49,646 bases of DNA from Lachnospiraceae bacterium (lineage in GTDB: Bacteria > Bacillota > Clostridia > Lachnospirales > Lachnospiraceae): NCBI GenBank assembly GCA_014804785.1, contig JAAUZD010000029.1:12833-62478 (forward strand). The letters run 5' to 3'. How positions within the stretch are numbered: position 1 is the first letter of the stretch; each line of letters opens with the position of its first letter. Below the pieces are notes generated by a model. The model ran no database searches, was not told the origin of the DNA, and saw only the letters and a program-made list of their open reading frames with translations. Made by a program: the position numbers and the translations under genes. Below are positions 3,189 to 20,133 of this stretch, piece by piece.

Positions 3189-3926
3189 TTAAACCTCCAT
3201 TCTTTCGATTCCTTTTGCGAGAATCTGATACATCACATAAGCTGCCAAAATAAAAAGAACACCTGAAAAAAACATAACGAGCACAATGTGGCTTAGCGAA
3301 CCTGCAATGAGATTTGGTACAAAACACACAATAATCAATGAACAAATAATGGTCGTCATTACAGAACGCTTTTTCCACCCAATCACAGCCGAAATCATGC
3401 CAATCGCAGAAGACAGAATACCGGCAAAAAAACTTGAAAGCAATACCGAAATCAATAAGTACCATTCTGATTTACCGATTGTCCCATTGGGAAGATTTCC
3501 CACTGTCAGTTCAGGTATAATCCCGAATATTCTGGCTGTAATGTACATTCCCCCTATAATCAATATATTGCTTACAAACGTAACAGCTGTCGTAAAGCCT
3601 ATAAGAATAATAGATTTCCTATTCAGGATTGTTCTTCTGCTAACCGGATAAGTAAAAAGGAGAACGGCATTTTTCCCGCAATACTCATCAACAATTATTC
3701 TGGCTGCAATGACCGCTGAAAAAATACTAAAACAAGCGACGTTCAACGCAGTTGACATTGCAAATAATCCACTCCAACTTGTAAATAGCACCTCGTCTTC
3801 AGGTTCACTGTTGCCCAAAAAAAGAAATAAAATTCCCAATGCCAGCAGACTGGCGAACATCCCAAGCAGCCCCCATAGATAAGCAGATAATCGTATTTTT
3901 TTTACCTCAAGTCTATATAATTCCAT
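3189..3926 (-). CDS. ABC-2 type transporter permease
   Basis: This 245-aa protein has about six membrane segments. Its architecture matches the ABC-2 permeases that pair with BcrA-like ATPases: short N-terminus, helix, extracytoplasmic loop, then a helix bundle. The start codon overlaps the end of the ATPase gene by 14 nt and is preceded by GAGGAGG, so the two are probably translationally coupled. With the ATPase it would form an exporter of a toxic compound, for example a peptide antibiotic. The substrate is inference only. Confidence 0.85.
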   Translation of the reverse strand: MELYRLEVKKIRLSAYLWGLLGMFASLLALGILFLFLGNSEPEDEVLFTSWSGLFAMSTALNVACFSIFSAVIAARIIVDEYCGKNAVLLFTYPVSRRTILNRKSIILIGFTTAVTFVSNILIIGGMYITARIFGIIPELTVGNLPNGTIGKSEWYLLISVLLSSFFAGILSSAIGMISAVIGWKKRSVMTTIICSLIIVCFVPNLIAGSLSHIVLVMFFSGVLFILAAYVMYQILAKGIERMEV

Positions 3927-4635
3927 GTTCGTTCCTCCTCATAAAGCTTACAACATAATTTTCAAAATCTTCGCCACATTCTAACACTTTTTCTTCTACT
4001 GAAAATTCCTGTCTGATGCCGCCATCAGACAAAATTCCAATTCGATCCGCTGTATGTCGTATTTCTCCGATAATATGGCTTGACAATAAAATAGACATGC
4101 CTCCATCTGCCAGTTTTCGTAAAAGCTCCCTCATTTCTGTAATCGCAATAGGATCAAGCCCGTTCAACGGTTCATCCAGAATCAGCAGCTTAGGACAATG
4201 AATCAATGCTCTTGCAAGACCAAGTCTCTGCCTCATGCCAAGGGAATATTGTGAAACAGGCTTTTTACCTGCATGTTCAAGCCCTACCATCCTTAATGCT
4301 TCCGATATGTTTCCCTCTTTCTGCATATAACAAAGATGCATGGAAAGAATATCATCTGCACTGAGATGTTCATAGAACACCGGATTTTCAATCATGCTTC
4401 CAACGTTTGCTAAATATTCCGGGGTATTATTTACCTCTTTACCCAAAACAGTAATGCTCCCTACGTCCATCTTCTGTAATCCTAGTATCATCTTCATCAA
4501 GGTTGTCTTTCCTGCACCGTTGATTCCTAAAAGTCCATATATCTCCCCCTCTCTAATCCTAAAACTGCAATTATGAATCACCTCCGATAAACCATAACTT
4601 TTATAAACCGACTTTACTTCAACAACTGTCTGCAT
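3913..4635 (-). CDS. ABC transporter ATP-binding protein (BcrA-like)
   Basis: This ATPase subunit has Walker A GINGAGKT near residues 37-44, the signature YSLGMRQ near 130-136 and Walker B LLILDEP near 150-156. The C-terminal extension resembles bacitracin/lantibiotic export ATPases. An upstream GTG at 4659 is possible, but the ATG at 4635 follows AAAGGAGG at 6 nt spacing, so it is the likely start, giving 240 aa. The palindrome at 4650-4668 lies just before the ribosome site, so the operon is probably repressed by the TetR protein encoded upstream. Confidence 0.93.
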   Translation of the reverse strand: MQTVVEVKSVYKSYGLSEVIHNCSFRIREGEIYGLLGINGAGKTTLMKMILGLQKMDVGSITVLGKEVNNTPEYLANVGSMIENPVFYEHLSADDILSMHLCYMQKEGNISEALRMVGLEHAGKKPVSQYSLGMRQRLGLARALIHCPKLLILDEPLNGLDPIAITEMRELLRKLADGGMSILLSSHIIGEIRHTADRIGILSDGGIRQEFSVEEKVLECGEDFENYVVSFMRRNEHGII

Positions 4636-14242: not shown

Positions 14243-14370
14243 TACTTATATGATTTTTCTGTATCTTCTGCAGCATATAATCGGTAAATATGTGTGCTTT
14301 TTCCTCCTCAATCTTCATCTCATTCCCAGACGCATAGCTTTCTAATGCATCTGAAATGAGCGGGTGGAAT
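14243..14370 (-). pseudogene. Unidentified 3' gene fragment fused to the type III toxin relic
   Basis: One minus-strand frame, from about 14380 down to a TGA just past the kinase gene, reads as a plausible helical C-terminus (LPSEFHPLISDALESY and EKAHIFTDYMLQKIQ). It lies one frame off the short toxin relic upstream and has no start of its own. I do not recognise the parent family. It looks like the surviving end of a gene left after a deletion that also removed most of the toxin. Confidence 0.4.
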
Positions 14371-14478
14371 TCAGAGGGGAGGTTTTGTATGCTTTTGCTC
14401 TATCTCCGGGTACTTTGCAGAAGGGTACCTTTGATAAAAATTCTCTGATAAAAATACAAAACGTTTTTCTTTTGCCAT
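14371..14478 (-). pseudogene. Truncated ToxN/AbiQ-like (type III) toxin, 35 codons
   Basis: The ATG at 14478 follows AATAGGAGAGAAA. The reading frame starts MAKEKRFVFLSENFYQ and continues with YPSAKYPEIEQK, then stops after 35 codons. This beginning matches my recollection of the CptN/ToxN-like type III toxins of clostridia, which continue with RPY and a long RNase fold to roughly 150-170 residues. The rest is missing, so the endoribonuclease must be dead. Upstream it keeps a hairpin terminator, two RNA repeats and a promoter, exactly in the order of a type III locus. The family assignment rests on a short sequence. Confidence 0.6.
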
Positions 14479-14495
14479 TTTCTCTCCTATTGAAA

Positions 14496-14519
14496 ACAAC
14501 TCCTGTTTCCAGGAGTTGT
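14496..14519 (-). terminator. Hairpin between antitoxin repeats and toxin relic
   Basis: On the minus strand ACAACTCCTG-GAAA-CAGGAGTTGT is a perfect 10-bp stem with a GNRA loop followed by TTTC. In type III loci a terminator at this position limits toxin expression relative to the antitoxin RNA. Confidence 0.8.
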
Positions 14520-14534
14520 CTTCTCATCGAGCAT

Positions 14535-14618
14535 TCCTTTTATTTTACTTGGTCACGCTCTATGACCAAATCTTCTGTTGAACTTTCTTTTTCCTCACGT
14601 TCTATGAGCTATTCTTCT
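14535..14618 (-). ncRNA. Two 42-nt repeats resembling a type III antitoxin RNA
   Basis: Repeat 1 (14618-14577) and repeat 2 (14576-14535) are imperfect copies in exact 42-nt register. Both begin AGAAGA and share TCATAGA followed by CGTGA. Each can form a small stem whose arms differ but still pair: CTCA/TGAG in repeat 1 and GGTCA/TGACC in repeat 2, around loops TAGAACG and TAGAGCG. That is compensatory variation. Type III antitoxins are tandem-repeat RNAs in this position. Confidence 0.6.
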
Positions 14619-14624
14619 AAAAAG

Positions 14625-14654
14625 AATATAATATAATTATATGCAGACAGTCAA
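14625..14654 (-). promoter_or_regulatory. Promoter of the repeat RNA
   Basis: On the minus strand TTGACT (14649-14654) and TATATT (14625-14630) are 18 bp apart. This places the start site at about the first base of repeat 1. Confidence 0.7.
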
Positions 14655-16311: not shown

Positions 16312-16761
16312 ATGACACCTAATGATATACTTTCATATTGTTTACGCACTCTCAAAGATGTCGCGTTAGTCGAAAGTTGGGGAGAACAAGGAATTTTTTA
16401 TAATCCGGACCATGTATTAAAGCGTGGAGTATACGTTTTGACAATCAAGGAAAAAGACGGCGCTAATGACAAGGGTTCTATGCTAAACCGTGACAACGTA
16501 TATCGTGTCAATGTTGGAATAAGGAAATCAACATTCATTAAGCGGTTTGGATATATTCCCCAACGTCCCCCTGCCGGAGAAATTGTAAAAATGGATTTTG
16601 ATTTTACTTCTTTAGACACAATCCTCCCTCATCCCGTTTATGCGTGGATGGGTTGGATATGTGTACTAAATCCCTCTGCTCAAACCTTTGAAGAATGTAA
16701 ATTGTTAATACGGGAATCCTATGAATTTGCTAAAGAGAAGTTTAACAAAAAATTGCACTAA
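16312..16761 (+). CDS. DUF6194-like protein
   Basis: This 149-aa soluble protein contains WGEQGIFYNP, TIKEKDGANDKGS, YRVNVGI and a conserved HPVYAWMGWICVLNPS stretch. I recognise this pattern as the DUF6194 family, often found beside YafY regulators. The YjbR/MmcQ-like DNA-binding fold is a possible relation. AAAGGAAAG precedes the ATG. Its product is probably the main target of the divergent WYL regulator. No biochemical role is established to my knowledge. Confidence 0.7.
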   Translation: MTPNDILSYCLRTLKDVALVESWGEQGIFYNPDHVLKRGVYVLTIKEKDGANDKGSMLNRDNVYRVNVGIRKSTFIKRFGYIPQRPPAGEIVKMDFDFTSLDTILPHPVYAWMGWICVLNPSAQTFEECKLLIRESYEFAKEKFNKKLH

Positions 16762-17678
16762 AATCTGGAAGTTCCCCACCAATCAGGGAGAAGTTCCTTT
16801 AATGTAACCGTCTTTCTTGTCTCAAAATCCAAAAGGATTTCAATATCCCCGCTATTTTTATCAAGTTGCATCATATATTCCCTGCAGGCTCCACACGGAG
16901 AGCCTGCTTTCCCATCCGGCTCTATGGCTACCACCTTTGCAATCTGGCTTTCACCATTCGTAATCATATTTGCGATGGCATTTCGTTCTGCACACATTCC
17001 CAAAGTACAGGCTGTATCGATACACACTCCTGTATATATATTCCCCGCCTTAGACATGATGGCAGCTCCTACTCCTCCCGCTTCTATGAATGGGGAAATT
17101 TCTCTTGGCGAAATCACATTCTTAGCTGCCGTATAGAGTCTCTCCCAATCATCCGGAGCCTGTTTTTCAATTCTTTCATCTGTAAGAGCGTACATTTTCA
17201 TATCAATCACTTTTCCATTTTTGACCGCATTCCTGCGCAAAGTCCCTTCAAACGTAAAACCTGCTTTTTCAAGAACTCTGCACGATCCAATATTATGGGA
17301 AAACGGTTCCGCATATATGCGGATAATATCACTGTTTGAGAAAACATAACTGCAAATCTGCTTTACGGCATCCGTCATAATCCCTTTTCCCCAATATTCT
17401 TCTGCTATGTAATACCCCAATTCAGCTGTCCTATAATGAATATTGCTTTGTCGGAATACCCCAATGCTCCCGACTACTTTACTGTCATAAATGATTGCAA
17501 AAGCAAAAGTCGTATTTTCGTCAGCTGCCAGCATCTCTCTAATAAATTCCCGTCCATCCTGCTCAGTGTACGGGTAAGGCAGACCATCACGTAGGTTATC
17601 CTGCACTTTTTTATTAGAAATTGCCTCCGCTAATTCCTTTGCATCATTTAGGTTCCATTTTCTTATCGTACAAACCAT
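16758..17678 (-). CDS. Fused GNAT acetyltransferase - cytidine/blasticidin deaminase-like protein
   Basis: This 306-aa protein joins two enzymes. Residues 1-165 are a RimJ/RimL-type GNAT (YWGKGIMTDAVKQICSYVF, SHNIGSCRVLEKAGF). Residues about 180-306 are a cytidine-deaminase-fold domain with zinc motifs CAERNA (Cys229, catalytic Glu231) and PCGACRE (Cys262, Cys265). Both catalytic cores look intact. An upstream GTG at 17690 abuts the stop of the previous gene, but AGGTGG is well placed for the ATG at 17678. It lies directly downstream of the GNAT at 17691-18200 and is probably co-translated. It may modify the same aminated nucleoside-like compound in two ways; that is inference. Confidence 0.85.
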   Translation of the reverse strand: MVCTIRKWNLNDAKELAEAISNKKVQDNLRDGLPYPYTEQDGREFIREMLAADENTTFAFAIIYDSKVVGSIGVFRQSNIHYRTAELGYYIAEEYWGKGIMTDAVKQICSYVFSNSDIIRIYAEPFSHNIGSCRVLEKAGFTFEGTLRRNAVKNGKVIDMKMYALTDERIEKQAPDDWERLYTAAKNVISPREISPFIEAGGVGAAIMSKAGNIYTGVCIDTACTLGMCAERNAIANMITNGESQIAKVVAIEPDGKAGSPCGACREYMMQLDKNSGDIEILLDFETRKTVTLKELLPDWWGTSRF

Positions 17679-17690
17679 TTTTCTGTCCAC

Positions 17691-19434: not shown

Positions 19435-19462
19435 TTGAAAATTTGCTAATAAATAGTATAAT
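19435..19462 (+). promoter_or_regulatory. Promoter of the Phd/PIN toxin-antitoxin operon
   Basis: TTGAAA (19435-19440) and TATAAT (19457-19462) have a 16-bp spacer. The 8-bp palindrome TTAGCTAA lies just downstream, a possible autoregulation site. GGAGGG at 19481-19486 precedes the ATG. Confidence 0.7.
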
Positions 19463-19493
19463 GAAATTAGCTAAATTAAAGGAGGGATATTGC

Positions 19494-19736
19494 ATGATTG
19501 GTGCAACTGCAACAGCAACAGAAATGCAGAATAATTTTGGGAAATACCTCAATATGGTCATAAACGGAAATGAAGTTATCGTAACAAAAAACGGAAAAGA
19601 AATCGGAAGGTTTATCCCCAAAAATACAGCAGTTTCCTATCTTACCGATTCCCTTACCGGGATCCTTAAAGGAAGCTATGACCTTAAACAAGAAAGAGAC
19701 GCAAAATTAAAGGAAAAATATGAGATTGTTGATTGA
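19494..19736 (+). CDS. Phd/YefM-family antitoxin
   Basis: This 80-aa antitoxin has the Phd fold signature TEMQNNFGKYLNMVINGNEVIVTKNGKEIGRF (given here as family pattern) at residues 8-40, followed by a charged C-terminal tail that would wrap the toxin. The longer frame from 19443 is discarded, because GGAGGG sits 7 nt before the ATG at 19494. It overlaps the PIN toxin gene by 17 nt. It should neutralise the toxin and repress the operon. Confidence 0.93.
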   Translation: MIGATATATEMQNNFGKYLNMVINGNEVIVTKNGKEIGRFIPKNTAVSYLTDSLTGILKGSYDLKQERDAKLKEKYEIVD

Positions 19737-20133
19737 TGCTAATATTTTATTAGATGTATTACAAAAAAGAGAGCCGTATTTCCATGATTCATCGCTGATA
19801 TGGAAATTATGCGAAACCAACTCTGCTGAAGGTTATGTCTCATCTCTGACTGTTGCCAATCTTATCTATGTGATGAGAAAAGAACTTGATCCTGAAAAAA
19901 TTGAAAATGTCCTATGTCAATTGAAACTGATATTCCAATTAACTGATCTAAGCGCATCTGACATTACCAGAGCAGCAGAAATGAAATGGAATGATTTTGA
20001 AGATGCAGTACAAAGTACAATTGCAGAGCGGATTCATGCAGACTGCATTATCACAAGAAATGTCCGAGATTTCAAGACAAGCAGGACTATTGCTTTTACA
20101 CCGGCAGAATATCTGGCAAGAATTTATTCATAG
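19720..20133 (+). CDS. PIN-domain toxin (VapC-like ribonuclease)
   Basis: This 137-aa PIN domain has the metal-binding acids Asp6 (LIDANI), Asp96 (FEDAVQ) and Asp118 (NVRDF). VapC-type toxins cut specific RNAs such as tRNAs. The gene overlaps its antitoxin gene. All key acids are present, so the pair is probably functional. Pairing of a Phd-type antitoxin with a PIN toxin is a common hybrid arrangement. Confidence 0.93.
   Translation: MRLLIDANILLDVLQKREPYFHDSSLIWKLCETNSAEGYVSSLTVANLIYVMRKELDPEKIENVLCQLKLIFQLTDLSASDITRAAEMKWNDFEDAVQSTIAERIHADCIITRNVRDFKTSRTIAFTPAEYLARIYS

Follow-up and report, generated by a model that had tools for sequence, protein, structure and literature searches.

What becomes of an RNA antitoxin when the toxin beside it is lost? 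The question is raised by a cassette on the minus strand of a 49,646-nucleotide stretch of a Lachnospiraceae genome (hereafter, the window). Read from 14654 to 14371, the cassette begins with a promoter and two diverged hairpin repeats, continues with a terminator and a ribosome site, and then reaches a toxin head. This is the order of a type III toxin-antitoxin locus (Table 1). A first-pass annotation took it for the relic of a ToxIN/CptIN-like locus that keeps its antitoxin RNA. The order, the head and a deletion junction bear out a type III relic with a retained RNA; its affinity, however, is to TenpIN. We find it very probable that a TenpIN-type locus lost its toxin here by a deletion through about codon 31, leaving promoter, both repeats and terminator whole, and that the remaining RNA may serve as an antidote.

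Cassette layout and loss of the toxin

Table 1. Features of the cassette and of its deletion junction, in window coordinates.
Feature	Position	Strand	Details
Sigma-70-type promoter	14625..14654	-	TTGACT (from 14654), 18-base spacer, TATATT (to 14625)
Antitoxin repeat 1	14572..14612	-	S1 CTCA/TGAG; pseudoknot S2 GAAC/GTTC
Antitoxin repeat 2 (RF02925 6A at 14522-14573)	14521..14573	-	S1 TTTGGTCA/TGACCAAG; pseudoknot S2 GAGC/GCTC
Intrinsic terminator hairpin, between antitoxin and toxin	14492..14523	-	Arms 14492-14505 and 14510-14523
Ribosome site AGGAG	14484..14488	-	5 bases ahead of ATG, read in the sequence
Truncated TenpN frame, 35 codons and stop	14371..14478	-	Derived from the toxin as far as the junction (14386-14389)
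Deletion junction, 4 bases common to both sides	14386..14389	none	Sides 2,856 bases apart in G404 (L043)
AadA-like nucleotidyltransferase gene tail, 46 open codons	14232..14389	-	In a different frame from the toxin head

The regulatory elements ahead of the toxin are largely as first described. The promoter boxes are present; a promoter scan of the window was by itself not above chance (1 found, against a shuffle mean of 2.1), and similar boxes recur at the same place in four related loci whose flanks differ (L011, L012, L021 and L022). The promoter regions show 36-44 identities over 60-65 aligned columns, compared with 76-86 of 91 positions in the RNA. Two repeats do follow, although not of 42 nt each as had been claimed: the hairpin units, which lie within 14610-14520, measure about 41 and 51 nt and are too diverged for a repeat finder, which did not report the pair in the window. 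The claimed terminator hairpin and ribosome site are both there. The terminator has 14-base arms that are 93% complementary, and its hairpin is the same in L021 and L022 and near-identical in L012. The 123-nt window leader folds at -41.8 kcal/mol (z -7.5).

On sequence similarity, the toxin is a TenpN and not of the ToxIN/AbiQ type. The head scores 19.1 bits (E 0.0011) against the TenpIN model NF047358, well below the 90-bit cut-off since it is a fragment, and a profile built from four intact toxins, with the window excluded, finds it in its own genome at E 2.3e-10. Over 33 residues, it also shares 70% identity with P0001, the L012 toxin (L012 being the Hespellia sp. MAG contig of L020). P0001 and P0002 reach 153.7 and 138.7 bits on the TenpIN model (cut-off 90). 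The search of the head against type III toxin families, which had been proposed as a check, thus found its family. Membership of the head in AbiQ/ToxN was considered and rejected, with no Pfam or PADLOC match; P0001 itself scores 20.3 bits on the ToxN profile PF13958, below the 25-bit cut-off, and P0002 is not among the matches listed. Intact loci, also sought as a check, exist in relatives: L012, L013, L021 and L022 carry the same repeat RNA above the Rfam cut-off, a hairpin before the toxin and an intact TenpN of 143-150 amino acids, in the same order. Neither of the two outcomes named beforehand as refuting the relic was thus obtained.

The head is shorter than the 35 toxin codons first assigned to it. 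About 31 codons derive from the toxin, a count that a 4-base overlap leaves uncertain by a codon or two, and the remaining codons and the stop come from the deletion partner. No complete TenpN gene above the 90-bit cut-off occurs in the window, which therefore holds a relic and not a working member of the family.

A same-genus genome, G404 (59% complete), indicates how the toxin was lost. It keeps the neighboring GNAT gene (460/478 bases) and the toxin-head region (113/118), and it has an AadA-like nucleotidyltransferase gene (AadA_C, 109 bits) whose tail matches window positions 14253-14389 (118/137). The window passes from toxin head to nucleotidyltransferase tail inside the 4-base overlap, whereas 2,856 bases separate the two sides in G404. 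From this comparison, a deletion fused the toxin head to the tail of the AadA-like gene, probably at the 4-base microhomology. The view that the toxin was deleted while promoter, repeats and terminator stayed whole agrees with this junction and with the presence of every element. A toxin origin for the 46-codon tail was rejected, as it has no real similarity to P0001 and is AadA-like instead. In G404 itself, a stop and, by reading, an internal deletion interrupt the toxin gene, and there is no 6A match, the RNA having been lost. The breaks differ between the two genomes, and the two relics have thus decayed separately.

Other features of the window were noted in passing. At 16758-17690 on the minus strand, a GNAT acetyltransferase domain is followed by a cytidine-deaminase-like domain in one frame. 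At 19443-20133 on the plus strand, a Phd/YefM-like antitoxin (25.3 bits, below its cut-off) precedes a PIN-domain protein (75 bits), likely a type II toxin-antitoxin pair.

The own genome has no TenpN above the cut-off outside the window, and a complete TenpN elsewhere was rejected as the reason for retention of the RNA. A frame at L002 1423-1854 (contig C28) matches TenpIN at 31.9 bits over positions 28-121, with neither a TenpN start nor a 6A RNA; this is probably a second TenpN remnant, one that has lost its RNA. The genome also carries a complete ToxIN at L001 1501-2150 (contig C20), with a ToxN of 170 codons (PF13958, 149 bits) and about three 34-nt repeats ahead of it.

Identity, fold and toxin association of the RNA

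The antitoxin RNA belongs to a known Rfam family. Repeat 2 is a full-length match to RF02925, “6A RNA”, with 59.7 bits against a gathering score of 41.2 (E 1.5e-9 over the whole window). Repeat 1 scores 18.3 bits, below the cut-off on its own. The window copy is the sole above-cut-off 6A in its genome.

The repeats fit an H-type pseudoknot, a fold supported by covariation. Each repeat forms a hairpin, S1, with GAGC, GAAC or GGGC as its loop; this loop can pair with GCTC, GTTC, GTCC or GCCC further downstream (S2). Both stems are kept in both window repeats. The earlier observation that the stem arms differ between repeats yet still pair is thereby upheld for S1 in the window and extended by S1 and S2 covariation across units. 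Among 27 repeat units from 13 loci (alignment A3; 25 distinct rows, assembled before the order-level and phage loci were found), S2 is paired in 100/100 cells (shuffled 92.9%), and both sides have changed in 10 cells, compared with 2.9 in the shuffles; two of five measures did not exceed the shuffles (pairs changed on both sides, 138/500; further pair types, 489/500). The first repeats of L013, L067 and L073, which the loop pattern had missed, were entered by hand. Both stems were then scored on 18 of these units (alignment A4; 17 distinct), leaving out the first repeats of L013, L066 and L071, five further first repeats with short linkers, and a duplicate L070 unit. Here S1 and S2 are paired in 153/153 cells (shuffled 77.2%). 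Both sides have changed in 34 cells, where the shuffles give 8.1, and the covariation score reaches 0.685 (shuffles, 0.216); further pair types do not exceed the shuffles (272/500). With the partner shifted by 1 to 3 columns, pairing falls to 21-37%. All these shuffles ignore the relatedness of the units. A sequence search for solved structures of relatives returned none.

6A RNAs in cellular genomes mostly adjoin TenpN genes. Searches with RF02925 over overlapping draws of 397, 37, 391, 373 and 348 genomes gave 21 distinct above-cut-off cellular loci, which are not independent (L086/L087, L081/L082 and L078-L080 are close kin). Fifteen adjoin an intact TenpN: just downstream of the RNA in 14 (L012, L013, L067, L070-L073, L081, L082 and L084-L088) and just upstream in L083. 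Three adjoin a broken one, namely the window, L011 (7 head codons and a C-terminal piece) and L068 (stops and frame changes). The three loci with no TenpN, L078-L080, represent one site in three related genomes. Intact relatives overall score 125-154 bits on the family model, and the frames of L067, L070-L073 and the viral locus L066 all exceed its cut-off (125-151 bits). Because 15 of the 21 cellular loci adjoin an intact TenpN and three more a broken one, 6A is best read as a TenpI antitoxin.

Weaker and more distant matches were also collected. Five 6A matches below the cut-off (L014-L017 and L069) have no TenpN among the frames listed and were set aside as chance; the four-toxin profile matched 20 of 397 genomes, and none of these is a genome of L014-L017. 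In plasmids, TenpN occurs in 2 of 72,556 records, at 35-36% identity. L100 has a reversed order at 3716-4470, with a 183-codon TenpN-like gene just upstream of its 6A repeats. L049-L059 and L101 have TenpN-like toxins behind a different repeat RNA, by eye of the GTGACGGTT...GACGGTAAAATAAAA type; in the two scanned (L049 and L055), this RNA has no Rfam match.

Persistence of toxin-less copies in chromosomes and phages

Is the orphan RNA kept for a reason, or has it simply not had time to decay? Under the proposed explanation, the window promoter would still make an RNA of roughly 125 nt ending at the terminator, and with no TenpN in the cell this RNA would stay uncut. A near-cognate TenpN arriving on a mobile element would cut it into repeats, which would inhibit the toxin, and the cell would thus be immune in trans. 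The orphan RNA could in this way still protect, as the first-pass annotation had suggested. Cross-protection is plausible within the group of L012, L021 and L022, whose toxins are 73-77% identical to P0001 and whose RNAs are identical at 76-83 of 91 positions. Loss of the antitoxin first would harm the cell; toxins should therefore go first, and RNA-only stages should recur, as is seen.

The strongest competitor is that the toxin was lost recently, with too little time for RNA or promoter to decay, and that the RNA has no present function. We regard this as quite possibly correct. Rates of change show no significant selection in the window or in the L067/L068 pair. The 91-nt RNA has three private changes in the window, none in a stem, and one in L011, two in L012, one in L021 and five in L022; faster decay of the window RNA than of its relatives was looked for and not seen, in a test of little power. 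Between L067 (toxin intact) and L068 (toxin broken), RNA and terminator differ at 1/145 sites, against 26/717 for the upstream region and toxin (p 0.068). Decay is moreover under way in other loci: the terminator hairpin is gone from L011, which kept its RNA, and the RNA itself is gone from G404.

Genus g574 argues against an inert leftover. Three of its genomes carry the 6A RNA at one site, downstream of an arsenate-reductase-like gene (identified by eye), with no TenpN in the regions read or, at E 0.01, in the genomes (G843, one contig, 99% complete; G872, 98%; G898, 78%). Between L097 and L099, promoter and repeat 1 have 0/144 differences, against 20/408 at the end of the upstream gene (p 0.003), although this stretch of 144 bases was picked post hoc, and the whole cassette, at 8/229, is no different from the upstream gene (p 0.55). 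The downstream gene differs at 67/495. In L079, by reading, one S2 pair of repeat 2 is broken. Taken together, these comparisons and the rates above are suggestive of selection on orphan RNA, not proof of it. The same genomes offer some room for another account, in which the RNA was taken over for a different host regulatory role and is no longer an antitoxin: there is no TenpN for it to meet at E 0.01, and repeat 2 varies (4/52). We consider such a takeover improbable for the window, which keeps both of the stems that mark intact antitoxins.

Toxin-less copies in phages also speak against an inert leftover. Pattern scans of IMG/VR gave 24 loci, of which 23 were scanned with Rfam (L119 was left out). 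Six of the 23 have an above-cut-off 6A (L109, L110, L111, L113, L114 and L129), and five of these are distinct, as L109 and L111 do not differ within the 1.3 kb compared. At E 0.05, no TenpN match occurs in the DNA read from any of the six; this DNA amounted to 1.5 to 11 kb per contig, for contigs 44 to 122 kb long, and L111 was read whole. The scan patterns demanded S2 pairing, which makes these loci no fresh test of S2; S1 is present though the patterns did not demand it. L109 has a head-maturation protease match and weaker terminase matches, and L114 has tail-fibre and holin matches. A seventh viral 6A contig, L066, is the one among the seven with a TenpN in the DNA read; this toxin frame is cut at the contig end and lacks the family's end, and a gene read as serine recombinase-like lies next to it. 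A 27-base RNA pattern had no match in viral contigs. Searches of INPHARED phages yielded neither TenpN nor 6A DNA, so the phage evidence rests on the IMG/VR contigs.

Some phage copies lie in RNA-rich regions. In L109 and L111, 6A stands beside a skipping-rope RNA, with a tRNA at a distance of about 1.2 kb; L113 and L129 likewise contain tRNAs, and L129 has a ROOL RNA about 2 kb away (regions L109 6792-7013 and L129 927-3480). Such surroundings, and the viral contigs with no TenpN in the DNA read, would suit a phage RNA unrelated to toxins that adjoins the toxin head by coincidence. This is very unlikely, being contradicted by the TenpN gene or remnant next to 18 of the 21 above-cut-off cellular loci and in viral L066; the matches at L014-L017 and L069, with no TenpN in the frames listed, are below the cut-off. 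That there is neither a real RNA nor a toxin remnant is scarcely credible: the repeat finder saw no pair and the promoter scan was at chance level, but the Rfam E-value, the fold z-score and the head profile contradict it, and the same cassette occurs in loci with other flanks.

Returning to the antidote reading, the toxin-less viral copies suggest phage antitoxin mimics. More broadly, we tentatively propose that 6A RNAs, as TenpI antitoxins, can also exist independently of a toxin: in chromosomes they would give trans immunity to incoming TenpIN elements, and in phages they would be standing mimics for counter-defence against host TenpIN. The window would then hold an addiction module turning into a stand-alone antidote; this wider proposal may well be right, and we hold it with clearly less confidence than the loss of the toxin itself. 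RNA antitoxins are not readily seen by protein-based surveys. Our results link a toxin family with an Rfam family whose name is silent on function, for which we also propose a pseudoknot, and they reveal RNA-only loci of three sorts: relics, a chromosomal site common to three related genomes, and phage contigs. Two ideas thereby become testable with short RNAs in laboratory strains: immunity through an antitoxin alone, and counter-defence by phage RNAs against type III systems.

Comparison with known systems

Loci of this type are known, and what the window holds is a relic of one. As far as the open-licence literature shows (most subscription papers and the original 6A description lie outside it), the new elements are RF02925 as TenpI, its pseudoknot and the recurrence of toxin-less copies. 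In that literature we found no paper on the name 6A RNA or on RF02925 and, among the matches listed, no RNA paper for “skipping-rope”. The Rfam model describes one hairpin, without the S2 stem, and the Rfam entry names no toxin link. Orphan-antitoxin counts in the available text of a marine survey name types I, II, IV and VIII, and not III (PMC12654330). Chromosomal type II antitoxins are described as giving anti-addiction immunity (PMC10305079).

Antitoxin RNAs of the better-known type III systems resemble 6A in form. ToxI and CptI are reported to be pseudoknots (PMC4627078), and in CptIN and ToxIN, too, repeats folded as pseudoknots precede a terminator and then an endoribonuclease toxin (PMC4627078, PMC5086642); they differ from the window in toxin family and repeat sequence. 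A single CptI repeat supplied in trans neutralised CptN with full protection, according to the available text of the same study (PMC4627078), which also describes these antitoxins as selective, 0 of 6 non-cognate CptI/CptN pairs at 35-44% toxin identity having worked.

Toxin-less repeats acting in trans have a counterpart in phage PhiTE, in whose escape mutants pseudo-ToxI repeats are reported to block ToxIN (PMC3475682). Counter-defence would thus be the natural reading of the phage 6A RNAs. The PhiTE repeats, however, concern another toxin family and were expanded in escape mutants, whereas 6A is a covarying RNA of chromosomes and metagenomic phage contigs with putative activity. The closest comparison is TenpIN itself (NCBIfam NF047358), whose founder is described from Photorhabdus (PMC5086642). 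The window likewise has a promoter, tandem RNA repeats, a terminator and a TenpN start, in order; it differs in that the toxin ends after about 31 codons and gives way to the tail of the next gene.
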